From the IMG/VR virus record IMGVR_UViG_3300009094_000076, positions 1 to 23,050 of that record: a stretch of 23,050 nucleotides of DNA. One strand, given 5' to 3'. Every line of letters begins with the position of its first letter. Position 1 is the stretch's first letter. The position numbers were made by a program, and so were the translations under genes. Below the pieces are notes generated by a model. That model searched no databases. It was not told the origin of the DNA and worked only from the letters and a program-made list of their open reading frames with translations. Source of the stretch: a virus. Positions 2 to 21,946 of the stretch are shown here, piece by piece.

Positions 2-748
2 GGCTACGTCGCGGTGATCGACCCGCTGCAGCAGAGCGAGCTGCTCAACGCGAACTTCGCGCTCTTCGGCAAGCAGTATCAGGACTACTTCCGCACCGGC
101 CAGTTCTCGCAGATGGCCCTCGGGGTCGATGAGTGGTACGTGGACCCGCTGCTGCCGATTCACACCACCGGCAGCTTCGCGGCCTCGACCCCCATCGTCG
201 CAGGCGCAAACCAGACCGGCAGCGTCCTCAACATCTCCGGCATGGGCGCGTATGCGCTCAAGGCGGGCGATGCGTTCTACATCGTCGGCACGAGCACGAT
301 GGGCGTCAATCCGCTGGCCTACACGTCCACCGGCATGCCGCAGCGGTTCGTGCTGCAGGCGGATGCGACGGGCACCGGCACGGCGGCGCTCCAGATCAGC
401 CCGCCCATCGTCACCGCCGGGCAGCTGCAGACGGTGACGGGCTCGCCCAGCAACGGTGCGGCGGTCCAGTTCATCGGCGCGACGGGCACGGTCGCCGCGA
501 CGATGGCGACGACGGCCTCGCGCCAGCAGCTGATCTTCAACCCGGCCGCGTTCGCGTTCGTGTCGGCCCCGCTCACGTCGGACCTGCCCGGCGCGCGGTC
601 GAAGGTCGTCACCAACGGCGAGGTCAAGCTGTCCATGCGGTGGGCCGAGCAGTGGAACATCCAGACGGACCAGAAGCCGTCGCGGGTGGATATCCTGATC
701 GGGGTCGCGGCCATTCAGCCGTACTTCGCCGTGCGGATCATGACCTAA
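2..748 (+). CDS. P22-type major capsid (coat) protein, C-terminal part
   Basis: This is the shell-forming coat protein, cut by the left window edge. The frame is open from base 2, and a GTG at 14 is almost certainly internal. The 248 visible residues match the C-terminal half of the P22 coat family: a segment GDAFYIVGT followed by a QRFVLQADAT stretch, an ISPPI strand, the FAFVSAPL segment, and the closing WNIQTDQKPSRVDILIG block ending in AVRIMT. In the family this region includes the inserted domain and the end of the HK97-fold core; that mapping is from memory of the family. The following gp4- and gp10-like genes agree with the call. The stop is TAA and the next gene begins 31 bases later. 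Identity is based on motif recognition, not on a search. Confidence 0.9.
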   Translation, partial: GYVAVIDPLQQSELLNANFALFGKQYQDYFRTGQFSQMALGVDEWYVDPLLPIHTTGSFAASTPIVAGANQTGSVLNISGMGAYALKAGDAFYIVGTSTMGVNPLAYTSTGMPQRFVLQADATGTGTAALQISPPIVTAGQLQTVTGSPSNGAAVQFIGATGTVAATMATTASRQQLIFNPAAFAFVSAPLTSDLPGARSKVVTNGEVKLSMRWAEQWNIQTDQKPSRVDILIGVAAIQPYFAVRIMT

Positions 749-1973: not shown

Positions 1974-2765
1974 ATGGGGGTGACAGCGGCGAGCCTGATC
2001 CGCACGGCGATGCAGGACCTCGGCGTCCTGGGCGCGGGCGAGGCCGCAGACGGCTCGCACATGCAGGACGGCCTGCGCCGCTTACAGGTCATGATCGGCG
2101 GCTGGTCGCTCGATCCGCTGACGGCCGCGCGCGATCACGGCCAGTCGTTCCCCGTGACCCCTGGCAAGTCGCAGTACACCATCGGGCCGGGGATGGAGTT
2201 CGACACGGTGCGCCCCGTGGGGCAGCAGTCGGTCGCCGCAGCGGGCTTGATCTTGAACGCGGGCCAGCCGAATCAGGTCGAGATCCCGGTCGGCCTGATG
2301 ACCTACGACCAGTGGATCGGGGTTCGGGTCAAGACACTCACCAGCCCGCTGTTCACGCATGTGATCTACGTGCCGGGCGCGACGGCCGCGCAGGCGACTC
2401 CGCCATCCGCGCCGCCCTACACGGCGTTTGGTGCCAGCGGGATCATTCTCTGGCCGACCCCGACCGAGGCGAATCCGCTGGTGCTCTACATCGAGCGCGT
2501 CTTGCCGCAGTTTGAAAACCTGACGACGCAGTACCCGATTCCAGACGGCGTTGCGGCCACGATTCAGCACAACCTCACCGTGGCGCTCGCGCCGATGTTT
2601 CAGGTGGAGCCGCCCGCCTACGTCGCGCGGATGGCGGCGCACACGCTGGCGGCGATGAAGCGCAACAACTACCAGTTTACCGACGCCGCGCTCGACCCGA
2701 TGTTCACGTTCGGCAGCGGCGCGGGCTACGACATCACCACCGGCGGCACGACGCGCCATGGCTGA
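1974..2765 (+). CDS. gp4-like head-closure / tail accessory protein
   Basis: In P22, gp4 binds below the portal and starts tail assembly and DNA retention. This 263-aa protein has the layout I associate with gp4-like head-closure proteins of podoviruses: an N-terminal helix pair with GLRRLQVMIGGWS at about 33-45, then FPVTPGKSQYTIGPG at 59-73, an IILWPTPTEANPLVLYIERV strand pair, and a C-terminal helical bundle (NLTVALAPMF, AAHTLAAMKRNN). It is longer than P22 gp4. The ATG follows GAGGGG with about 5 bases of spacing. Its last 8 bases overlap the start of the gp10-like gene, as expected for translational coupling of partners in the tail hub. Confidence 0.8.
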   Translation: MGVTAASLIRTAMQDLGVLGAGEAADGSHMQDGLRRLQVMIGGWSLDPLTAARDHGQSFPVTPGKSQYTIGPGMEFDTVRPVGQQSVAAAGLILNAGQPNQVEIPVGLMTYDQWIGVRVKTLTSPLFTHVIYVPGATAAQATPPSAPPYTAFGASGIILWPTPTEANPLVLYIERVLPQFENLTTQYPIPDGVAATIQHNLTVALAPMFQVEPPAYVARMAAHTLAAMKRNNYQFTDAALDPMFTFGSGAGYDITTGGTTRHG

Positions 2766-4317
2766 CTTTTCCGCGTTCGTCGGAGCGAGCTACAAGTCGC
2801 AGAGCCCGGTCAGCGACCAAGAGGAGTTGATCAACTTCTACGTCGAGGCGACCGGGTCGCCGGGCGCGACCGCGCAGGCGGTCTTGCACCCGACGCCGGG
2901 CTTCGAGCCCTTCGCGACGGTGCCGGTGCCTGCGGGCGCACCGTTCTCGACCGGCGGGCGCGCGATGTTCTACGGCATCACCACCACCGACCCGTTCCCG
3001 ACGCAGGTCGGGCGCTGCTTCTCGGTGTTCGGCAGCTCGTTCGACGAGATCATGGCCACCGGAGCCGTCATCCACCGCGGCCTCGTCGCTGCCGACGAGA
3101 ACCCCGCGACGATCACCACCAACGGCTACGGCAGCGACAGCGTGCTCCCTGACGACCAGGAGGGGATGGGGCAACTGCTCGTCACCGCGGGCGGCAAGGC
3201 CTACATCTTCGAGTTCGCGACGAATGTTCTGACCGAGATCCCCGACCTCGTCGGGATCAACGTGGTGCAGGGCGCGTGCCTCAACGGGCACTTCCTGGCG
3301 TTCGACCGCGACAACAGCATCATCTACGTGTCGGATCAGCTCGACGGCATGAGCTGGGACGTGTCGAACTACCTGCAGCGGCAGATCGGCACCGACCCGT
3401 GGCGCGCGATGGTGGCCACGCCCTATGGGCAGCTCTGTCTGCCGGGCACGTCCACCGGTGAGTTCTGGTATTTCGACCCGACGAACTACCCGACGCTCTT
3501 CTCGCCCGACCTCTCGGGCCTGTTCTCCTACGGCTGCGGCGCGACGTTCTCTGCGACCGTCATGGGCGACAGCGTGGTGTGGCTCGGGAAGGCTCCTGAC
3601 GGCGGCTATCAGGTGCTGCAGGCGCGCGGCTACCGGCCCGCACGCATCTCGACCTATGCGATGGAGCACGAGGCCGCGAGCTACCCGCGGGTCGATGATG
3701 CGATTGGGCAGTGCTACACCGAGCAGGGCCACACGTTCTACCTGCTGACGTTCCCGAGCGCCAACGTGACGTGGTGCTACGACGAGGCCGCGCCGCAGGG
3801 GCGGCAATGGCACAAGCGCGGAACATGGGTGTCCGAGCAGGGGCTCTATAAATATCAGCGGCCGGTGTTCCACGCCTTCGCGTTCGACAAGCACCTGATG
3901 GCTGACCGCGAGGCCTACCAGATCTACCGGATGGCGAACGCCCTGCCGCGCGACATCGAGGGGCGCGTGATCCGGCGGCTGCGCCGCTCGCCGACCGTGC
4001 AGAACCAGAACGAGCTGATTGTCTATAGCGGGTTCGAGCTGCTGTTGGAAACGGGCCTCGGGCAGGACGCGAATCCGCACGGCCCGCCGCCCACGGTCAT
4101 GCTGCGGATCTCGAAGGACGGCGGGCGCACCTGGGGGAGCGAGCGGCAGGCGAGTGCTGGGGCGCTCGGCTTGTTCCAGACCCGCGTGTCATGGGACCGC
4201 CTGGGGCAGGCGCGGCAGCGCGTCTTCGAGGTCACGGTCAGCGACACCGTCCGCAACTGGCGCGTGACCGCCGCCTACCTCACGGTGCCCGGCGAGCTGC
4301 GGCAGAGGGCGGGCTGA
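2758..4317 (+). CDS. gp10-like packaged-DNA stabilisation / tail hub protein
   Basis: A 519-aa protein resembling P22 gp10, which attaches to gp4 as part of the hub that plugs the tail and carries the tailspikes. Supporting features are the N-terminal LINFYVEA with HPTPGFEPF at about 24-52, a long beta-propeller-like middle with repeated strands (YGQLCLPGTSTGEFWYFDP, GDSVVWLGKAP), and a C-terminal block MLRISKDGGRTWGSERQ near residue 447 followed by TRVSWDRLGQARQRVF. The last block is a hallmark of this family. Length is close to the family norm of roughly 470-520. It overlaps the gp4-like gene by 8 bases upstream and the next gene by one base (TGATG). Confidence 0.88.
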   Translation: MADFSAFVGASYKSQSPVSDQEELINFYVEATGSPGATAQAVLHPTPGFEPFATVPVPAGAPFSTGGRAMFYGITTTDPFPTQVGRCFSVFGSSFDEIMATGAVIHRGLVAADENPATITTNGYGSDSVLPDDQEGMGQLLVTAGGKAYIFEFATNVLTEIPDLVGINVVQGACLNGHFLAFDRDNSIIYVSDQLDGMSWDVSNYLQRQIGTDPWRAMVATPYGQLCLPGTSTGEFWYFDPTNYPTLFSPDLSGLFSYGCGATFSATVMGDSVVWLGKAPDGGYQVLQARGYRPARISTYAMEHEAASYPRVDDAIGQCYTEQGHTFYLLTFPSANVTWCYDEAAPQGRQWHKRGTWVSEQGLYKYQRPVFHAFAFDKHLMADREAYQIYRMANALPRDIEGRVIRRLRRSPTVQNQNELIVYSGFELLLETGLGQDANPHGPPPTVMLRISKDGGRTWGSERQASAGALGLFQTRVSWDRLGQARQRVFEVTVSDTVRNWRVTAAYLTVPGELRQRAG

Positions 4318-5880: not shown

Positions 5881-6819
5881 ATGATCGACCGCTGGACCGT
5901 AGACGTTGCGGACAACAAGACCGACACGCGCGAGGCCGAAGAGCTGTGGCTGCAGGACCAGCTGCGCGAGCTGAACCCGATGGCCGTGGACCGGGAGTGG
6001 CTGATCGCCACCGGGCAGATCCCACCCGACCCGGTCATTGACGAAGGCGGCGGCGACGACGGCGGCGGTAGCGACGGCGGTGGCGGTGGCGGCGGTGGCG
6101 GCGGTGGTGGTGCTCGCGGTTCGTTCGCGCCCCCGTCGAATCAGATCGGATGGATGCCGCGGCTCGACCTGCCGACGTGGGTCCCGCCCGCGCCGTTCAA
6201 GGCTCCCGCGCCGTTCGAGGGCATTGGCAACTTCTCGTATCCCGAGTATCAGAAGCCTGCCGACTACGTTCCGGGCACGTTCAGCGCGCCCACCATCGCG
6301 GAGGCCCGCGCCGAGCCCGGCTTCCAGTTCGCGCTCGATGAGGGGCGGCGGCAGATGGAAGCCTCGGCCGCGGCCAAGGGCATCGGCCGCACCGGCGGCA
6401 CCGTGAAGCGGCTGATCGGCTACGGCCAGGAGATGGCCGACACGAACTACAACAGCGTCTTCAACCGCAGCAAGGGCATCTTCGACACCAACGAGGGCAA
6501 CCGCGAGCAGGCCTACAACACGAACGCCACGCTCGGCTTCGGCGCGTGGGACGCGAACCGCGCCAACGCCGCGAACACCTTCGCGACGAACTACGGGGTC
6601 GCGAAGGACAAGTACGACTACGGCTACAAGTCGGCGTCCGACGAGTACGAGAGCCTCTACGGCACCTCGCGGCAGAAGCACGAGTACGACACCGCGGAGG
6701 CGCTCGGCGAGTTCAAGCCGCGGGAAACTGAGGCCACGCTGACGCACCAGCAGGCGTTCGCGGAGTGGCTCGCCAAGATGGGCATCGCCGAGAACATCTT
6801 CAACGAAGGCTCAGACTAA
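5881..6819 (+). CDS. Probable internal/ejection protein with Gly-rich hinge
   Basis: A 312-aa protein. Residues 1-54 form an acidic helical start. Residues 56-77 are nearly pure Gly with Asp and Ser. Residues 144-162 (AEPGFQFALDEGRRQMEAS) and 172-190 (GGTVKRLIGYGQEMADTNY) match a recurrent phage signature (GYQF-type segment, then SGGT, then a long helix). The C-terminus is a Tyr/Asn-rich helix with repeated spacing of YN, YD and YE residues. This signature is common in podovirus proteins next to tail genes, and ejection or tail assembly roles have been proposed for such proteins. AGGA precedes the ATG by about 4 bases. It lies 6 bases from the previous gene and overlaps the next ATG by one base. 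Confidence 0.75.
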   Translation: MIDRWTVDVADNKTDTREAEELWLQDQLRELNPMAVDREWLIATGQIPPDPVIDEGGGDDGGGSDGGGGGGGGGGGGARGSFAPPSNQIGWMPRLDLPTWVPPAPFKAPAPFEGIGNFSYPEYQKPADYVPGTFSAPTIAEARAEPGFQFALDEGRRQMEASAAAKGIGRTGGTVKRLIGYGQEMADTNYNSVFNRSKGIFDTNEGNREQAYNTNATLGFGAWDANRANAANTFATNYGVAKDKYDYGYKSASDEYESLYGTSRQKHEYDTAEALGEFKPRETEATLTHQQAFAEWLAKMGIAENIFNEGSD

Positions 6820-8156
6820 TGGCAGGCCCCTACGCCTCGCTCACGTCGCCCTACGCGCCGAACCACATGGACAGCGCGCTCCGCATTGCCGACCTGATCG
6901 CGCAGCGGGGGCGCAGCGCCGCGCTGGCGCAGCATGCGCGGCGGTCGATGGTCGGCGACCTGATCAGCGGCGGCGCACGCGCGGTCGGCGGCATCTTCGG
7001 AGCCCGCGACGAGGCAAAGAAGACGGCCGCGGAGAACGCGCAGATCGCCGAGATGATTGCCAGCGGCCAGCCGCTGGACCTCTCGAAGCTCGTGGCGGCG
7101 GTCGGCGTGCCGCGCGCCAAGGAGATTTACACCTTCGTCGAGGCCGCGCTCGCGAAGCAGAAGGCGTCGTCGCTGGAGGCGAATCAGACGGGCCTGCGGC
7201 AACGCGCGGCGGGGGCTCTCAAGCAGGGCGTCGATCCGAGCGTGATCAACGCCGAGCTGTATGGCGAGGGCGCGCCGCTCCTGCCGTCGCAGCTCGGGCC
7301 TGACCCGAAGGCCGTCGAAGCCGCCGCGGCGAAGAAAAAGCTCGACGAGGAGAACACGCTGATCGCCGAGATCTCGGAGGCGATGAAGCACGGCATGAGC
7401 CGCGCGGACGCGCAGCAGTACTACGCCGCGAAGACCGGCGGCAAGCTGCTCGGGAAGGAGTTCTTCCCCGAGGAGCCCGCGAAGGTCGAGCGGAAGTTGA
7501 TCACGGTGCCCGGCCCCGGCGGCGTGCCCATGCAGCGGTATGCCACCGAGGAGGAGCTGGAGAAGGGCGTGCGGATTTACCGCGCGCCGACTGACACGGG
7601 TGGCAGCGGCCTGCCCAAGCTCACGGGCGCGCAGCAGGACGACCTCGCCACGATGGACACCGTCGTGGACCTCGCGGGGCTGGCGACCGCGCTGGGCGAC
7701 AAGATCGGCTGGAAGGGCGTCGGCGGGCTCTGGACGGGCACCATCGCGGGGCAGGCGGCGAAGCAGCTCGGGTGGGGCACCGCGGACGAGGAGAACCTCC
7801 GCAACTACCTCGGCAACATCCAGGGCACCATCGCCAAGCTCCGCGGCGGCACCGCGTTCTCCGCGGCCGAGAAGGCGATGCTCAACAGCTACACGCCCAC
7901 CCTCAACGACTCGGACACGGTCATCCAGAGCAAGCTCAAGTCGCTCGGCGAGTTCATTGCGCTGAAGCGCACCAACACGCTGAAGTATGCCGGGCGTGAG
8001 ACGCCCGCCCCGCCGACCGGCGGTGGTGTGCCTGACGGCGTCAAGCGGGCGCTCGCGAACGAGCCCGCGAACCCGCCGCCGCAGACGCCCTACGTGCTGG
8101 CTGACGGCTCGAAGTGGCGGAAGAACACAGACGGGTCAATCACGCGGGTGCCCTGA
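6819..8156 (+). CDS. Putative internal virion / ejection protein, helical
   Basis: A 445-aa, mostly helical protein whose ATG overlaps the previous TAA by one base. Residues 1-60 contain a glycine-punctuated helix (GDLISGGARAVGGIFGARDE). Residues 60-220 are a long charged helical region with a short Lys run. The conserved part is at about 285-385: a TMDTVVDLAGL helix, a KLRGGTAFSAAEKAMLNSY segment near 340, and the pattern PTLNDSDTVIQSKLKSLGEF. I recognise the last pattern from large phage proteins near ejection genes. The C-terminus is Pro-rich and ends in a short strand pair (YVLADGSKWRKNTDGS). An ejection-protein role is inferred from position and helical content. Confidence 0.7.
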   Translation: MAGPYASLTSPYAPNHMDSALRIADLIAQRGRSAALAQHARRSMVGDLISGGARAVGGIFGARDEAKKTAAENAQIAEMIASGQPLDLSKLVAAVGVPRAKEIYTFVEAALAKQKASSLEANQTGLRQRAAGALKQGVDPSVINAELYGEGAPLLPSQLGPDPKAVEAAAAKKKLDEENTLIAEISEAMKHGMSRADAQQYYAAKTGGKLLGKEFFPEEPAKVERKLITVPGPGGVPMQRYATEEELEKGVRIYRAPTDTGGSGLPKLTGAQQDDLATMDTVVDLAGLATALGDKIGWKGVGGLWTGTIAGQAAKQLGWGTADEENLRNYLGNIQGTIAKLRGGTAFSAAEKAMLNSYTPTLNDSDTVIQSKLKSLGEFIALKRTNTLKYAGRETPAPPTGGGVPDGVKRALANEPANPPPQTPYVLADGSKWRKNTDGSITRVP

Positions 8157-12149: not shown

Positions 12150-14459
12150 ATGCCTACCGTTATCTCGCCGCAGCCGTGGCTCATCTTCCTCGACGACAAC
12201 GGGGCACCGGTCCCGAACGGACAACTCGCACTCTACGAAGCCGGGACGAGCACGCCGGTCACCGTCTACACCGACAGCTTGGCGTCGGTGCCGCACCCGT
12301 GGCCGATCACGCTCGACAGCGCCGGGCGCATTCCTGGCGGGCTGTTCATCCTGCCGGAGGTGGCTTACAAGTTCGTCCTGCACCAGCCGAAGCTCGCCAA
12401 TCTCGACCTTACGGGCGCGATCATCAAGTCGCAAGACAACGTCATGGGGCACGGCGGCAAGGTCAACGTCTCGGGCAGCGTGCCCGACTCGGGACAGTTG
12501 CCGGGCACCGGCGAGCCGGGGGACGCCTACATTTCGGCCGACGACGGGCACCTCTGGATCTGGGATGACATCAACGGCGTCTGGGTCGATGTCGGCGCAG
12601 TGCAAGGCCCGCCCGGGCAGACCGGCCCGGTGGGACCGATGGGACCGCAGGGGCCAATCGGCCTGACCGGCGCGCAGGGCGATCCGGGGCCGCAGGGCAT
12701 CCCCGGTGCCACGGGGGCAACCGGCCCGCCCGGTACGCCCGGCGCAGACGGCACGGACGGCCTCGACGGCGCACCGGGCGCACCGGGGCCGCAGGGACCG
12801 CAGGGCATCCAGGGCATCCCCGGCCCTGAAGGCGAAGGCCAGATCGGCCCACAGGGGCCGCAGGGCGAGCCCGGTCCCATCGGGCCGTCAGGCCCGCCAG
12901 GACCGCAGGGCGAGACGGGCGCCATCGGCCCGGCGGGCCCGGCGGGCACGGCGGGACCGCACGCCGCCACGCACCGCACCGGCGGCTCGGACCCCGTCGC
13001 GCTCGACGCCGCGCAGATCACGACCGGGCAGTTCGTGGACGCGCGGCTCTCCGCGAACGTCGCGCTCGAAAACGTCGTGAACACGTTCGCGTTCCCGCAG
13101 ATCATTGCGACCCAGGCGGCGCTGCTCCGGCTCGTGGACACGGTCGCGCCGGTCGATGCCAAGGTCTGGCAGGTCATGAGCAGCGGTGGCCCGCTCTACC
13201 TGCAGGCGACGAACGACGCGGTCAGTCTGGAGCAGGGCAGCTTCCGCGTCGAGCGCAACGGCACCACCATTCAGACCGGCTCGATCAACGCCACGGGCAG
13301 TGGCACCACGCCCCTGAATGCCGCGAACCTGACCGGCCAAGTGCTCGATGCGCGGCTGTCGCCGAACGTCGCACTGGAGAACGTCACCAATACCTTCCTG
13401 GCCTCGCAGTACATCGTCGCGCCGTCCGCGCATCTCCTGCTCCAAGACACGAACGGCACGGCGAACCAGCGGCTAACGCGGCTGATCCAGGCCGGGAACC
13501 TCACCATCATCCAGACGCTGGACGATGCCCAATCGGGCGAGCAGGGGCGTCTGGCGATGGACCGGCTGGGTAACGTCAGCCTCTCGGGCACCATCAATGC
13601 CACGAGCAGCGGCACCACGCCGCTCCTTGCCGCGAACATCGTCGGCCCGATTCCTGACGCGAAGCTGACCGCGAACGTCCTGAAGTATGCGGGCGGGTAT
13701 CCCGGCGGCACCGCCAACTTCCTCCGCGCCGATGGGAACTTTGCCCCGACGCCGTCCGGGCGGGTGATCGGCACGCTGTCGATTCCTGGCGCGTCCCTGA
13801 TCGACGTGACCGGCCTCGACATCGTGAACTACACGGGGGCCGGGAACTTCACGATGTATGGGTTCTTCGGCGGCGTCGAGGGGCAACAGATCCTCATCAA
13901 GAACCTGTCGGCGTCGAATGTCTTTCTCCCGCACCAATCGGGCAACGCCGCCGTGGGCTACAAGCTGTTCAACGCCGTGAGCGTCGGGCCGACGCCGCTG
14001 GTGGGCAACAGGTCGTGGGCGCGCTACCTCTACACCAACGGCTCATGGTTCCTGACCGGACATGAGCAGGGCGACCCCTACACGGAAGCCTACGACGCGG
14101 GCAACTACCGGGGCCTGAACGACACGTTTTCGTGGGTGGTGGAAGCGGGCGACATTCTCGCGGACAACTGGTACGTGTCCGGTCGCCTCTGTACCTACAA
14201 CTTTTATCTCGTCAACACGAGTATCGGCGGTGCGGCGGTGGGGGCCTCGCTCACGCGGCAGATCCCGCAGGGGTGGTCGCAGATCAGCGGGAACGGCGTG
14301 TCGATGTGCGCGCTGGGCGGCGTGGCGGGGCAACCGAATGGCGTGGCCTCGACCGGGTATGGCGGGCGCGTAACCTTTGGCCGAATGGATCAGGCCAACT
14401 GGCCCAACGTCAACAACAGCATCGCGGTCATTGGGCAGCACCAGTTCATGCTGTCGTAG
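12150..14459 (+). CDS. Tail fibre protein, long paralogue with collagen-like shaft
   Basis: A 769-aa fibre. Residues 5-100 are the same anchor domain as in the preceding gene. Residues about 120-150 form a small module (ADDGHLWIWDDINGVWVDVG). Residues 153-270 are about 40 Gly-X-Y triplets with one phase break near GPEGEGQIGPQ, expected to form a collagen-like triple helix. HAATHRTGGSDP then leads into three repeats of the type DARLSANVALENVVNTF (about 293-313 and 397-417, and a degenerate copy near 500), probably trimeric coiled or beta shaft. Residues about 537-769 are the tip domain shared with the short fibre. The ribosome site is weak, so translation may depend on the upstream fibre gene. 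Confidence 0.9.
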   Translation: MPTVISPQPWLIFLDDNGAPVPNGQLALYEAGTSTPVTVYTDSLASVPHPWPITLDSAGRIPGGLFILPEVAYKFVLHQPKLANLDLTGAIIKSQDNVMGHGGKVNVSGSVPDSGQLPGTGEPGDAYISADDGHLWIWDDINGVWVDVGAVQGPPGQTGPVGPMGPQGPIGLTGAQGDPGPQGIPGATGATGPPGTPGADGTDGLDGAPGAPGPQGPQGIQGIPGPEGEGQIGPQGPQGEPGPIGPSGPPGPQGETGAIGPAGPAGTAGPHAATHRTGGSDPVALDAAQITTGQFVDARLSANVALENVVNTFAFPQIIATQAALLRLVDTVAPVDAKVWQVMSSGGPLYLQATNDAVSLEQGSFRVERNGTTIQTGSINATGSGTTPLNAANLTGQVLDARLSPNVALENVTNTFLASQYIVAPSAHLLLQDTNGTANQRLTRLIQAGNLTIIQTLDDAQSGEQGRLAMDRLGNVSLSGTINATSSGTTPLLAANIVGPIPDAKLTANVLKYAGGYPGGTANFLRADGNFAPTPSGRVIGTLSIPGASLIDVTGLDIVNYTGAGNFTMYGFFGGVEGQQILIKNLSASNVFLPHQSGNAAVGYKLFNAVSVGPTPLVGNRSWARYLYTNGSWFLTGHEQGDPYTEAYDAGNYRGLNDTFSWVVEAGDILADNWYVSGRLCTYNFYLVNTSIGGAAVGASLTRQIPQGWSQISGNGVSMCALGGVAGQPNGVASTGYGGRVTFGRMDQANWPNVNNSIAVIGQHQFMLS
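12606..12960 (+). repeat. Collagen-like Gly-X-Y coding repeat
   Basis: A run of 9-base units encoding Gly-X-Y triplets inside the long tail fibre, with GGN at every third codon and frequent CCG and CAG. It explains the locally repetitive GC-rich pattern and is a likely site of copy-number change by slippage or recombination. One phase interruption lies near 12826-12846. Confidence 0.9.
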
Positions 14460-14913: not shown

Positions 14914-15543
14914 CTACGCGCGCTCCGCGGCTCCGGCGCGGCCGGGCCGGTCAGCAGGCCGGTGCGCGGGCGCATCCGCGTGCGGCTCGGTGCGGACGTG
15001 CTTGCCCTTGTCCTTGCCGTTGTCGGCGTGCTCCTCCTCGCCGTCCGGGTTGACCTGCTTCGGGCTCGCCTTCTTCGGCTCCTTCGGCTGGTCGGGCTGG
15101 GGCGGGAAGGGCACCGGCGGGTTCGCGGCGCTCGGGAGGTTCTCCAGCCGCAGGCCGTAGTCGTCCAGCGCGCGCTCCAGAATCGCCCGCAGCGTCAGCC
15201 CCTTCGACACGTCGGCCTCGTAGGCTTTCAGCGCCTCGTCGCCCCACGGCACGCGGAAGAAGGCGTAGAGCTTCTGCATGACCTCCAGCCCGGCGTCGAA
15301 CGTCTCTTTGTTGCTGATGGGATTGGTCTTCCCGTCGTGCTGGGTCTGGTTCGGGTCGGAGAAGTTGATCGACATGGATGCAGTCCTTTCGCTAGGAAGA
15401 GGGCGGAATGCTGTGCAGTCGCAGAGAAAGGCACTGCATCCGTCGCTGTACTGGTCATCGTCCACGCGGTAGATAAGGCTGTGCCGCGCCTCGACGTGTC
15501 CGCATGAGCACATGCGAGCCGGGATTCTCTGCGTGGCCGTCAT
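14914..15543 (-). CDS. Cys-motif protein with charged tail; possible two-start gene
   Basis: A 209-aa open frame. Residues 12-48 hold CSCGH, a following His, and CSAFLCDCTAF, a small Cys/His motif seen in many short phage and bacterial proteins and probably metal-binding. From residue 57 (MSINFSDPNQTQ) a different, helical protein begins (TFDAGLEVMQKLYAFFRVPW, LTLRAILERALDDYGLRLE) and ends in a very charged tail rich in Lys, Asp, His and Pro. AGGAG precedes the ATG at 15543, and GAAAGGA precedes the ATG at 15375, so both could be used. Either one fused protein or two products from one frame is possible. It is the last gene of the leftward operon, downstream of the terminator of the PEP-CTERM gene. 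Confidence 0.65.
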   Translation of the reverse strand: MTATQRIPARMCSCGHVEARHSLIYRVDDDQYSDGCSAFLCDCTAFRPLPSERTASMSINFSDPNQTQHDGKTNPISNKETFDAGLEVMQKLYAFFRVPWGDEALKAYEADVSKGLTLRAILERALDDYGLRLENLPSAANPPVPFPPQPDQPKEPKKASPKQVNPDGEEEHADNGKDKGKHVRTEPHADAPAHRPADRPGRAGAAERA

Positions 15544-15606: not shown

Positions 15607-16350
15607 TTATCGGCGACGGCGATACGCGAGCCCCGCGAGCCCCAGGCCCAGGAGCGACAGCGACACCGGCTCAGGCACGGCTGCCACGTCCGTGACCTGC
15701 GTCTGCCCACGGCTGATGAGCCGCCCACTGCCTTCCAGCAGCATGTCGAACCCCAGCGTCATCGAGAACGGACCCGCCGCCCCGAACGGCGCGGGGCCGT
15801 AGTTCACCGCGAACGAATCCACGATGCCCACGCCGGTGTCGGTGAACGTCGAGATCAGGGTGCCGGGCCGGTCGGTCGCGGTCTGCGCGCCGATGGCGTT
15901 CAGCGCGTCCGCGTAGAACGAGTAGGTGGCGAACGAGCCTTCCGCCGTCTGCCACGTTCCGCTCCCGCTGTTGGCAATGAAGCTGGTCGGGCCGGGGAAG
16001 CCGTCTGCGCTGATCGTGGATTCCAGCGTGATCTGGCCCGCCGTCGTGTTCTGAATCGTCAGCGACGAACTGTTGATGACGTTCAGCGCGGGGCCGTTCG
16101 CCTCGCTGTGCAGCGAGCCTTCGATCAGGAGCCCGCCGATCATGGCGGTGCCCAGGTCGAGAATGCCCACGGTCGGGTTCAGGTCGTTGACCTGCGTGCC
16201 GTAGAGGCAGGGCGCGTTCTGATCTGTCGCGCAAAACAACGTGCCGCTGTTCACGTTTCCAGCAATGGTGAGCGGTGCGGCATCCGCGCGCGGGGCTAGC
16301 ATTAGGATCAGTCCCAGCGTCATCACGCTGGCGGTTACACGGTTACGCAT
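15607..16350 (-). CDS. PEP-CTERM sorting-domain protein, exported
   Basis: A 247-aa predicted secreted protein. The N-terminus is a signal peptide: MRNR, a hydrophobic core (VTASVMTLGLILMLAP), and a likely cleavage after RADA. The mature part is Ser/Thr/Gly/Asn-rich and predicted all-beta. The C-terminus is a textbook PEP-CTERM signal: VPEP, a hydrophobic helix (VSLSLLGLGLAGLAY) and RRRR before the stop. In bacteria such tails are cut by exosortase, with products destined for the surface or exopolysaccharide. I chose the ATG at 16350 because the signal peptide starts there; it overlaps the end of the HNH gene by 8 bases (ATGCGTAA). Phage carriage of such a protein is unusual. Its role (surface change, exclusion, biofilm) is unknown. 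Confidence 0.88.
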   Translation of the reverse strand: MRNRVTASVMTLGLILMLAPRADAAPLTIAGNVNSGTLFCATDQNAPCLYGTQVNDLNPTVGILDLGTAMIGGLLIEGSLHSEANGPALNVINSSSLTIQNTTAGQITLESTISADGFPGPTSFIANSGSGTWQTAEGSFATYSFYADALNAIGAQTATDRPGTLISTFTDTGVGIVDSFAVNYGPAPFGAAGPFSMTLGFDMLLEGSGRLISRGQTQVTDVAAVPEPVSLSLLGLGLAGLAYRRRR

Positions 16351-16750
16351 TTGTGCTCTCGCTTTCCTTAAGGCGGTGATACCGCCGTAGTTCTCGTTGC
16401 GCGTGACACACCCGACAGTAGCGCCCATCGCTCCTGCGGGTTAGCGGGTGTCCGCGTAGGCACTTCGTCTTGCGTGCGTTCACCGCCGCAGGGCTTTCCC
16501 CACGGCGCTTGTTCTCAGCCAGCGTCACCGGCTCCAAATGGGCCGGATTGACGCAGGCCCGGTTTCGGCAGAGATGATCCAGCGTTAAGCCTGAGGGGAT
16601 TGGGCCGACGAGCCATGCATACGCGAGGCGATGGGCCATCCTGGCATTGCCGTCAAGGTGGAATGCCCCATAGCCGTAGTGATTCAGCGCCCCGGTCCAG
16701 AGCCAGCACTCAGCGGTCTTATTGACCTTCGACCAGAAGCGATTCTGCAT
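16343..16750 (-). CDS. HNH endonuclease with C-terminal zinc motif
   Basis: A 135-aa free-standing HNH nuclease. Its core is of the phage HNH_3-like type: CWLWTGALNHYGYGAF, MAHRLAYAW, then LDHLCRNRACVNPAHLEPVT, giving His59, Asn68 and His71 as the likely catalytic set. The C-terminus has Cys97-x3-His101 and Cys112-x2-Cys115, a probable zinc site, with a basic end. Family members nick or cut DNA; many are selfish homing enzymes. No clear ribosome site precedes the ATG, which is 19 bases from the previous stop, so coupling is likely. Its end overlaps the PEP-CTERM start. It is one of three HNH genes in this operon. Confidence 0.88.
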   Translation of the reverse strand: MQNRFWSKVNKTAECWLWTGALNHYGYGAFHLDGNARMAHRLAYAWLVGPIPSGLTLDHLCRNRACVNPAHLEPVTLAENKRRGESPAAVNARKTKCLRGHPLTRRSDGRYCRVCHAQRELRRYHRLKESESTNA

Positions 16751-19348: not shown

Positions 19349-19843
19349 TTACTCCTTCCAAGAAACACCACGAGAGATGCGAGAAACTTGCGAGCGATCT
19401 AGCTTGTAACCGGCGGCGATGTCCTTTACTCGGCGACCTTCTGCCCGCGCGGCCCGAATCGCCGCCACGTCGGCCTCTGACACCTTGGCGCGCGGGTGCT
19501 GCGCCCGCCGCCGTGTTGCTTCGGGCTTGGTGTAGTGGCCGTTGGCCGCGCCGCGCGCATGGCGACCCTTGATGAACATGTCACGGTTGTTGTCCACGCG
19601 CGTTCCGAGAAAGAGGTGCGCGGGGTTTACACACGGCGGATTGTCGCAGCGATGCAGCACACACAGGCCGGTGGGTATCTCGCCGTGAAACAACTCCCAT
19701 GAGACGCGATGCGCCTCCCTGATCTTTCCGTTCAGCCAGAAGCGGCCGTAGCCAAACTTCGCCAAGGCCCCGCGCCAAGGCCAACAGGTCGAGTCGCTGA
19801 CCGGTGACACGCTTGCCCAAAACAAGGGCACCCTGCTGCTCAC
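19349..19843 (-). CDS. HNH endonuclease with C-terminal HTH
   Basis: A 164-aa free-standing HNH nuclease. The core reads CWPWRGALAKFGYGRFWLNG, EAHRVSWELF, CVLHRCDNPPCVNPAHLFLG, with His64, Asn73 and His76 as the likely catalytic residues. Residues about 118-162 (VSEADVAAIRAARAEGRRVK, then IAAGYKLDRSQVSRISRG) form a helix-turn-helix that probably directs site recognition. The start is GTG, overlapping the exonuclease-annealase stop (GTGA), preceded by GAGGTGG. Family members are often homing enzymes that invade phage operons. It separates the fusion gene from the recombination-associated gene. Confidence 0.88.
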   Translation of the reverse strand: MSSRVPLFWASVSPVSDSTCWPWRGALAKFGYGRFWLNGKIREAHRVSWELFHGEIPTGLCVLHRCDNPPCVNPAHLFLGTRVDNNRDMFIKGRHARGAANGHYTKPEATRRRAQHPRAKVSEADVAAIRAARAEGRRVKDIAAGYKLDRSQVSRISRGVSWKE

Positions 19844-21237
19844 TCCACCTCGCTCGGCTCGTAAAGCCCCATCACGATGTCCGCGTAGACCAGCCGCGCC
19901 AGCTTCGCGGACGCACGAGCGATTAGCATGTCGGCAGGGTGCTTCGCCCATCCGCTGCCGGGCTTCACGAGGTCGGCCATCCTCGCGTCGTCCATCGAGA
20001 ACGAAAGACTGACCTCGGGGTCGTCGCCGCGCTTGGTGACGAACGTCGCGCGCTCGTTCGTGCGCTCGACGCACCTGAAATACTTCGCGGCCCCAGACCG
20101 GAGCACGAGCGCCCGAATCGCGTCCGCGGACAACACCGGCTTCCCAGAAACGATGTGAAAGGCACGCAGCGCGTGCATCGCAGGCAGGCCCATCTCACGA
20201 CCGGCCATGATCGTCATCAGCACCGCGGGGGCGTTCCCATACGAACCGAACAGGCGTGAATCCATCGCCCACTTCGCCAGCGTCACGGCCTCAGTCAACG
20301 TCTGCGGCTCCAACTGCCGCGTGTAGTCGTGCTCGACCATCACCGGCACCAGCGCGGTTGTCTGCTCCTCGCGCACCGGCTCCGGCTTCGTGGGTTCCGG
20401 CGCGGGCGACGGCTGGCCGGTGGGGGTGTCGGCGGTCACGGGGGCGGGCTCAGTCTCGAACAGGGGCTGGGGGCGTTCCACGGCAATTTCCTCGAAGGGG
20501 ATGGGGGCATCGGTGCGGAGCGCGATCAGCGCCCGCACGGCATCGACACGGGGGAAAAACTCGGCGAGCGACGACTGCACCGTCGCGCTCAACGTCGCGG
20601 GCTCCTCGGCCCACGCCGTGTGCAGCCCTTCGAGCGTGCCGTGCTGCGCGAGCAGCCGCGCCGCGATCACCGGGCCGATCTTCGACGCGCCCTTCACGTT
20701 GTCGGAGGCATCGCCGACAAGACACAGGAAGTCAGGCACCTGTTCCGGCCGCACGCCGAACTTCTGCATGACCGCGTCCGGTCCCAGCTCCGCGCCGTCC
20801 TTCAGCGACTTGATGTGGACGCGGTCGCTCACGAGCGCGAGCAGGTCCTTGTCGGCCGAGGCCACGAGCACGCGGGTGTCGGGCGATTCGAGCGCGAGCC
20901 GCGTGGCGGTCGCGATCACGTCGTCGGCCTCGAAGCCCTCGGCCATCCACACCGGCACGCCCTCGGCCTTCAGCGCCTCGACCACGAGGTCGAGCTGATG
21001 GTAGAGCGGCGCGCGGCCCTCGCTGCTGCGCTGCGCCTTGTAGGTCGGGTCGAGGTCGCGGCGGAAGCTCTTACGCGAATCGACAGCGACCGCGGCGTAG
21101 GGCTGGCCGTGCAGCAGCCCGCGCACGCGCGCCAGGATCTGCTCGGAGGTCGCGTTCGGGTTCGGGTCCGACGCGGCCATGTGCCAGATCGGGTAGCCGA
21201 TGCTGGCGAGGTCGATGAAGAGCGCGGTGGTGCTCAT
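19840..21237 (-). CDS. FEN-type 5'-3' exonuclease fused to a putative RecT-like annealing domain
   Basis: A 465-aa two-domain protein. Residues 1-255 are a 5' nuclease of the polymerase I/T5 FEN type with all expected acidic metal ligands: Asp9, Asp53, Glu103-Ala-Asp105-Asp106, Asp129 and Asp131 (SADKDLL), Asp176 and Asp179 (GDASDN), followed by the helix-hairpin-helix KIGPVIAARLL. The basic arch segment SFRRDLDPTYKAQR is present. Residues 260-298 are a Pro/Glu linker. Residues 312-465 (LFGSYGNAPAVLMTIMAGRE, LRAFHIVSGKPVLSADAIRA, ATFVTKRGDDPEV, HPADMLIARASAKLARLVY, MGLYEPSE) resemble phage RecT-like single-strand annealing proteins; this is from memory. One polypeptide could resect DNA and anneal the product. 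It overlaps both neighbours by four bases. Confidence 0.85.
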   Translation of the reverse strand: MSTTALFIDLASIGYPIWHMAASDPNPNATSEQILARVRGLLHGQPYAAVAVDSRKSFRRDLDPTYKAQRSSEGRAPLYHQLDLVVEALKAEGVPVWMAEGFEADDVIATATRLALESPDTRVLVASADKDLLALVSDRVHIKSLKDGAELGPDAVMQKFGVRPEQVPDFLCLVGDASDNVKGASKIGPVIAARLLAQHGTLEGLHTAWAEEPATLSATVQSSLAEFFPRVDAVRALIALRTDAPIPFEEIAVERPQPLFETEPAPVTADTPTGQPSPAPEPTKPEPVREEQTTALVPVMVEHDYTRQLEPQTLTEAVTLAKWAMDSRLFGSYGNAPAVLMTIMAGREMGLPAMHALRAFHIVSGKPVLSADAIRALVLRSGAAKYFRCVERTNERATFVTKRGDDPEVSLSFSMDDARMADLVKPGSGWAKHPADMLIARASAKLARLVYADIVMGLYEPSEVE

Positions 21238-21461
21238 CGCGTCACCGGCACGAGGTCGAGCGCGCGGGCGCTCGCGGTCAGAATCGCGCCGAGCTGCTCA
21301 CACTGCTCGGCATCGAGGTAGACAGTCACCGTCTGCCGTCCGTTGCCGAGGGCACCGGAGGAGATCGAGAGCTGCAGGGTGGAGGCGGGACCGGCCGAGC
21401 AGACGATGGGGCCGTTCCACGCATTCGGGATCTCTATCGTTTTCAATCGAGGCGCTTCCAT
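21234..21461 (-). CDS. Small hypothetical protein upstream of the exonuclease-annealase
   Basis: A 75-aa protein, mostly beta (IEIPNAWNGPIVCSAGP, STLQLSISSG, RQTVTVYLDAEQCEQLGAIL) with a final helix. The ATG at 21461 is fixed by AGGAG 4 bases upstream, which lies inside the end of the HNH gene; the two genes overlap by 19 bases. Its stop overlaps the next ATG (ATGA). No family is recognised. Tight coupling suggests a function linked to recombination. Confidence 0.7.
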   Translation of the reverse strand: MEAPRLKTIEIPNAWNGPIVCSAGPASTLQLSISSGALGNGRQTVTVYLDAEQCEQLGAILTASARALDLVPVTR

Positions 21462-21946
21462 GTTTCTCCTGAAAGAGCGGCGCGGATCGCGTGCCTGCTC
21501 ACGCCGAACCGGGCCATCCATCGTGCGACGGAGTGCCGCTCGCGAACCTGCGCGCGGAGCCATCGAACATCGTCACTCGTCAGCTTCGACTTCCAGTGCC
21601 CGTCGCCGCGCGGGAGCCGTCCCTTCGCGCTCGCGTCGGCGTGGTTGTCGGCGCACGTCCCCAGGAACAAGTGCGCCGGATTCACGCACGCCGGAACGTC
21701 GCAGTCGTGGCAGACCTGCAAGTCGCTCGGCGGCATCTCGTCGGCGTTCGCGAACATCCACGCGAGCCGGTGCGCCTTCTTTGGACCACCCCCGCCGTAG
21801 CACTGCGTGCCGTAGCCGTCCTTGTCCACCGGCCCGAGCCACAACCAGCACGCCTCGGGGTCGCGCACGGCAACGCGCGCCCAGAATCCTTCGCGGGTCA
21901 GTCGGGGCTTCGGCACGGCCACAAGCGTAGGCGCAGTGCATTGCAC
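21443..21946 (-). CDS. HNH endonuclease with C-terminal HTH, first gene of the leftward operon
   Basis: Up to 167 aa. The core reads CWLWLGPVDKDGYGTQCYGG, KAHRLAWMF, LQVCHDCDVPACVNPAHLFL, with His80, Asn89 and His92 as likely catalytic residues. Residues about 121-164 (LTSDDVRWLRAQVRERHSVA, MARFGVSRHAIRAALSG) form a C-terminal helix-turn-helix, as in the other HTH-bearing HNH gene here. The start is uncertain: GTG at 21946 lies inside the candidate promoter spacer, while GTGs at 21922 and 21916 lie near its predicted transcript start. The gene is the first of the leftward operon, divergent from a small HTH regulator. Homing activity is the default guess. Confidence 0.85.
   Translation of the reverse strand: MQCTAPTLVAVPKPRLTREGFWARVAVRDPEACWLWLGPVDKDGYGTQCYGGGGPKKAHRLAWMFANADEMPPSDLQVCHDCDVPACVNPAHLFLGTCADNHADASAKGRLPRGDGHWKSKLTSDDVRWLRAQVRERHSVARWMARFGVSRHAIRAALSGETWKRLD

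Follow-up and report, generated by a model that had tools for sequence, protein, structure and literature searches.

The window examined here, a 23,050-base IMG/VR virus record, carries an ORF (P0001) whose product has the architecture of a PEP-CTERM protein, which raises the question of whether a phage encodes a substrate for the exosortase of its host and what such a protein would do. PEP-CTERM proteins occur widely among environmental Gram-negatives and, to our knowledge, the functions of most of them are not known. P0001 shares a signal peptide, a body of little homology, a PEP motif, a membrane helix, and a basic end with proteins of the PEP-CTERM/EpsH (exosortase) system, in whose description phages are unmentioned (Haft et al. 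2006, PMC1569441). It differs in being phage-encoded without an exosortase of its own, and in having an ectodomain that was virus-only in the data searched. As would be expected of phages, neither the window nor any of 12 related virus records contained an exosortase.

The earlier note had described a secreted protein with a signal peptide and a VPEP-helix-RRRR tail, and this description was borne out by curated models. The tail of P0001 scored 26.1 bits against PF07589 (cut-off 20.7) and 22.4 bits against TIGR02595 (cut-off 16). The tail pattern occurred once in the window and in none of 100 dinucleotide shuffles, and PF07589 matched none of 14 control genomes. The start codon was placed at 16350, giving the N-terminus MRNRVTASVMTLGLILMLAPRADA with predicted cleavage before the following Ala, and the C-terminus was VPEPVSLSLLGLGLAGLAYRRRR. 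The signal peptide, as read from the sequence, was composed of an n-region (RNR), a hydrophobic core, and the cleavage site, was conserved in homologues, and formed the N-terminal helix of the AlphaFold2 model. Since the homologues begin near the same Met, a longer in-frame ORF extending to 16428 was unnecessary. With its tail above the curated cut-offs and its N-terminal signal peptide, P0001 is, at the level of sequence, a PEP-CTERM protein.

When the whole protein was compared with NCBIfam, EDSAP-1 (NF041538; 31.4 bits, below its cut-off of 100) and floc_PepA (NF033554; 26.5 bits, below its cut-off of 80) were among the best matches, and neither was matched once the tail was removed. The ectodomain without the tail gave no NCBIfam match and nothing significant in Pfam. 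The RpoN −24/−12 site, which is a trait of some host PEP-CTERM genes, was not found 5′ of the gene by a strict pattern.

The features of the window and of a cultured phage discussed below are collected in the table. The 8-base overlap with an HNH gene, on which the earlier note had relied, was confirmed, and the shared segment (16343–16350) was ATGCGTAA. P0001 lies among consecutive minus-strand genes, one of which is the exonuclease/RecT-like gene upstream, and this run meets the plus-strand tail-fibre genes. The G+C content across the gene, about 0.66, was the same as that of its surroundings. The exonuclease/RecT-like gene is a single ORF that apparently fuses a 5'-3' exonuclease, at its N-terminal end, to a RecT-like C-terminal region. 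Three HNH_3 ORFs (16343–16750, 19349–19756, and 21443–21946), all on the minus strand, were located in about 5.6 kb. The nearest cultured phages were distant (~27–34% identity), and their Gram-negative hosts include Rhodoferax, Vibrio, Shewanella, Xanthomonas, and Pseudomonas. When near relatives of the window were sought for a comparison of synteny, the exonuclease/RecT gene yielded none, and Hc3 yielded two short contigs that ended before the PEP-CTERM site.

Table. Positions of the PEP-CTERM gene, its parts and its neighbours in the window, and of two PEP-CTERM genes of phage Tunturi_5
Feature	Position	Strand	Details
PEP-CTERM protein gene P0001	15607..16350	-	247 aa; ORF and translation; PF07589 and TIGR02595 above cut-off
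Sec signal peptide, predicted	16279..16350	-	Residues 1-24; cleavage site between ADA and A, read from sequence
Ectodomain	15679..16278	-	Residues 25-224; 12-strand beta sandwich; AlphaFold2 model and alignments
PEP-CTERM sorting tail (VPEP, TM helix, RRRR)	15610..15678	-	Residues 225-247
HNH endonuclease gene	16343..16750	-	HNH_3, PF13392, 46.4 bits; overlaps PEP-CTERM start by 8 bases
Downstream ORF	14914..15543	-	63 bases past PEP-CTERM stop; no Pfam or PHROGs match
Collagen-like tail-fibre gene	12150..14459	+	Opposite strand, pointing at PEP-CTERM gene; PHROGs tail and tail-fibre families
5'-3' exonuclease with RecT-like C-terminal region	19840..21237	-	PF02739, PF01367; phrog_107, phrog_561
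Major head protein, P22 coat type	2..748	+	5'-truncated at window edge; phrog_283
Head closure Hc3	2758..4317	+	phrog_578
gp97	L214:3108-3704	-	Tunturi_5 PEP-CTERM protein, ...TPEPSTWMLLGTGLIGTIKLAVRKIRA
gp179	L199:5620-6258	+	Tunturi_5 PEP-CTERM protein, LKTFLKISALALVLLAIPVSAFADS...TPEPGSLVLLGTGLFGAAGMAYRRAK

Used as a query against viral contigs, P0001 recovered two relatives at 50% identity; two alignment scans gave 15 and 64 loci, and an ectodomain profile added further members from the tail-pattern matches. The resulting family, defined by a match to the ectodomain profile, comprised 93 ORFs on 93 viral loci, some of which overlap on one contig, and formed 65, 49, and 27 clusters at 98, 90, and 70% identity, respectively. 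A canonical PEP tail ended 89 of the 93 ORFs. The remaining four retained this tail but read AEP or GEP where the others have PEP, and two representatives of these scored 19.5–19.6 bits against PF07589, slightly below the cut-off. About eleven family ORFs entered through the tail pattern; most members were recruited by ectodomain peptides only, so the retention of the tail is not mainly an effect of selection of the data. The ratio dN/dS in the ectodomain was 0.03–0.29 between close pairs, which represented purifying selection. P0001 has a signal peptide and a conserved beta-sandwich ectodomain, and its PEP-CTERM tail was kept throughout the family, which has so far been seen only on viral contigs.

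A scan of GTDB, limited by patterns and covering 84,980 species of bacteria and archaea, gave 33 pattern matches, none of them a family relative. Because such genome scans need a match to a short peptide pattern, which divergent cellular members could escape, the term virus-only holds for the searches made here. No family member was found in plasmids, and P0001 had no relatives among the cultured phages of INPHARED; a 25-aa tail query for cultured relatives also gave no match and was too weak to count. The search of viral databases for PEP-CTERM tails that the earlier note had proposed yielded some members of this family together with further viral PEP-CTERM clusters. The window gene belongs to a viral family of exosortase-substrate-like proteins that has apparently not been described before.

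The gene neighbourhoods placed the family among core phage functions. The PEP-CTERM gene immediately followed the terminase gene in L005, and in L006, in a terminase-capsid-portal context, its start overlapped the portal stop by 4 bases. In L055 and L139 it was flanked on one side by a small membrane ORF and on the other by a P22-type portal, and the coat protein lay downstream. Terminase neighboured the family gene in L041, and the family gene was upstream of terminase in L151, L155, L156, and L152. It followed tail-side genes, ahead of opposite-strand helicase/primase genes, in L173 and L176, was located between exonuclease and DNA polymerase in L008 and L014, and occurred in records of 102–112 kb (L019 and L016). 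Terminase (phrog_2) was present in 22 of 49 family records and the P22-type portal (phrog_156) in 11 of 49. That unrelated phages carry family members inside their head and packaging cassettes indicates a genuine phage gene, which upholds the view of the earlier note that it is not a flanking host gene; nor is it chimeric, a condition that the note had named as refuting. The position of the gene varied, from the exonuclease/RecT-like strand behind HNH in the window to sites in or beside late operons elsewhere. Therefore, the insertion site is variable and moron-like, whereas the gene and its tail are conserved.

In L006, the ORF after the PEP-CTERM gene (6518–6940, plus strand) resembled the C-terminal end of portal families, and the arrangement looks like an insertion of the PEP-CTERM gene into, or just behind, a portal gene that was split. 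Small membrane ORFs were also observed near family genes (L173:5556–5828, L176:5621–5818, L152:5303–5494, and L147:4958–5197); these could be holins or other lysis genes, with weak family matches at most. HNH was considered as a co-mobilising partner and rejected, since HNH_3 occurred in only 12 of 49 family records; the HNH overlap is accordingly a trait of the window phage and not of the family. A temperate phage with a lysogenic-conversion gene was likewise rejected, since a tyrosine integrase was found in 0 of the 13 records tested, an absence that is only suggestive because these records are fragments.

In 11 of 49 clusters the family gene had a second PEP-CTERM ORF, belonging to another family, on its own strand and no more than 300 bases away. 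Such adjoining genes, of several families, were observed in L165, L182, L185, L188, L005, L144, and L171, and further in L178, L019, L090, L189, L167, L001, and L002. At least two tandem partner families recurred, one in L005, L165, L182, L185, and L188 and one in L144 and L171. The tandem partner of L001 and L002 was not found in cellular genomes by a pattern-based scan. A census of IMG/VR with a narrow VPEP-tail pattern gave at least 120 stretches. Among the matches listed, which numbered 122, there were 81 tail-like ORFs in 33 ectodomain clusters, and 76 of these ORFs had a signal-peptide-like start; a few of them were spurious, and single cases could be host flank. These counts indicate that viral PEP-CTERM proteins are common and that the window family is one among several. 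A larger census cluster, with 29 loci among the matches listed (L023, L035, L053, L056, L060, L062, L065, L070, and 21 more), had a different ectodomain, an example of which starts MKRLLMTTAIVTGA...ADIISTLGYTAN.

PEP-CTERM proteins were also found in an isolated phage. The complete genome of Tunturi_5 (PP885688), a cultured jumbo phage of Tunturiibacter psychrotolerans (Acidobacteriota), encodes two proteins annotated as hypothetical, gp97 and gp179, with PEP-CTERM tails above the cut-off. The match leading to this phage covered the C-terminal part only, with an E value of 0.5. The tails of gp97 and gp179 are like those of the window family, whereas the ectodomains have no recognisable relationship. 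The presence of such proteins in an isolate shows that phage-borne exosortase substrates are no artefact of contigs or assembly. PF07589 matched none of ten other cultured or circular phage records, which were three other Tunturi phages and seven others, including distant relatives of the window and two Microcystis phages. PEP-CTERM does not appear in the main text of the Tunturi_5 isolation paper.

The AlphaFold2 model, based on 11 family members, had a mean pLDDT of 84.9 and was composed of an N-terminal helix, a 12-strand beta sandwich, and a C-terminal helix. When the model was compared with known structures using VIA-align, the top match was the surface glycan-binding protein B (SGBP-B) of B. 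thetaiotaomicron (Z 9.8), followed by Bdellovibrio Bd1399 (9.4), CBM61 (8.6), an Epf adhesin domain (8.1), and the K2-2 tailspike (8.0). The TM-scores obtained with Foldseek were low, and the fold searches singled out no one specific family. Neither a Pfam CBM match nor a recognisable binding site was found in the ectodomain. Jelly-roll folds are common, so Z values of 8–10 are only suggestive and do not count as evidence of glycan binding; the model suggests that the ectodomain may be glycan-binding or adhesive. In addition, a Cys pair near the start of the ectodomain (F-C-A-T-D-Q-N-x-x-C) was kept in 15 of 15 aligned members, which fits a putatively exported, oxidised domain.

The best explanation of these observations, to which we give about an even chance, is that P0001 is a phage-made substrate for the host exosortase that coats surface glycans and thereby lowers adsorption and/or protects released progeny. 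Following the PEP-CTERM/EpsH model, Sec would export the protein, the tail would hold it in the inner membrane, the host exosortase would cleave the tail, and the cleaved protein would be released to the outer surface or the exopolysaccharide layer. The ectodomain, which is similar in fold to carbohydrate-binding modules and to lectin-like modules of tail spikes, may then coat or cross-link surface glycans of the infected cell and the matrix. Such a coating would reduce adsorption of further phages, which amounts to superinfection exclusion, and/or would keep released progeny from loss on debris and matrix. This explanation draws on the tail and signal peptide, the retention of the tail, purifying selection, the core phage neighbours, the lack of a cellular member in the scans, the Cys pair, the fold matches, the tandem partners, the Tunturi_5 proteins, and the joint action of host PEP-CTERM proteins and exopolysaccharide in forming flocs (PMC9850573; Gao 2018, cited in PMC12642866). 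The common jelly-roll fold and the variable position of the gene were counted against it.

A rather unlikely alternative is that the protein is sorted by the exosortase and acts in biofilm, floc, or matrix, for example by aggregating or loosening infected cells and altering transmission, while adsorption is unaffected. The CBM-like fold and the second PEP-CTERM gene alongside in part of the family are in agreement with such a role, as are published findings that link host PEP-CTERM proteins to floc formation (PMC9850573) and cyanoexosortase B to motility and biofilm formation (PMC12188702). However, the loci read showed no recognisable gene for a matrix enzyme or for exopolysaccharide beside the family gene, and a lytic phage would have scant time to build a matrix. 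It is still less probable that the protein stays in the inner membrane by its anchor and faces the periplasm, where it would act in superinfection exclusion or assist lysis with no need for an exosortase. The signal peptide, C-terminal membrane helix, and basic end would already give this topology, and the possible lysis genes adjoin the gene in L173, L176, L147, and L139; but a PEP box would be superfluous in a plain anchor, yet it was kept in nearly the whole family with the four close variants, and the matches of those neighbours to known families are weak.

It is very improbable that the gene is a host gene with no role in the phage, whether recently acquired or brought into the contig by mis-assembly. 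PEP-CTERM proteins are typically cellular, and host flank could account for some of the VPEP-tailed ORFs in the IMG/VR census; this reading was nevertheless rejected on the packaging and capsid cassettes of unrelated phages, purifying selection, absence from the scanned species, the matched local G+C, and the overlap with a phage gene. Selection and gene context likewise make passive cargo unlikely.

Preferring the reading of an exosortase substrate that coats the cell surface, its proposed action would be analogous to that of T5 Llp and phi80 Cor, in that a small phage-encoded surface protein blocks adsorption. Llp and Cor are surface exclusion proteins that act on an outer-membrane receptor and are not known to be exosortase substrates. 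No published function for phage PEP-CTERM proteins was found in the literature. The sole earlier hint found is a single sentence on hot-spring viruses of Lemonade Creek in Yellowstone, which concerns proteins of a different family, TIGR03118, with a putative exosortase-interaction C-terminus, 13 of which are given as horizontally acquired (PMC11003980).

The virus-only family, its conserved tail, the second gene in about one-fifth of clusters, and the Tunturi_5 pair suggest that many phages, while infecting a cell, use the host exosortase to bring proteins of their own to its surface or close to it. It is possible, and we hold it tentatively, that virus-specific PEP-CTERM proteins, often two adjoining, are displayed through the host exosortase on cell and matrix and form an unrecognised class of superinfection-exclusion or progeny-protection proteins across unrelated tailed phages. 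Since a PEP-CTERM gene in a virus implies that its host is exosortase-positive, such genes offer a host clue for uncultured viruses. Furthermore, the family gives a direct route to the question of what role PEP-CTERM display plays at the cell surface and whether it controls phage adsorption.
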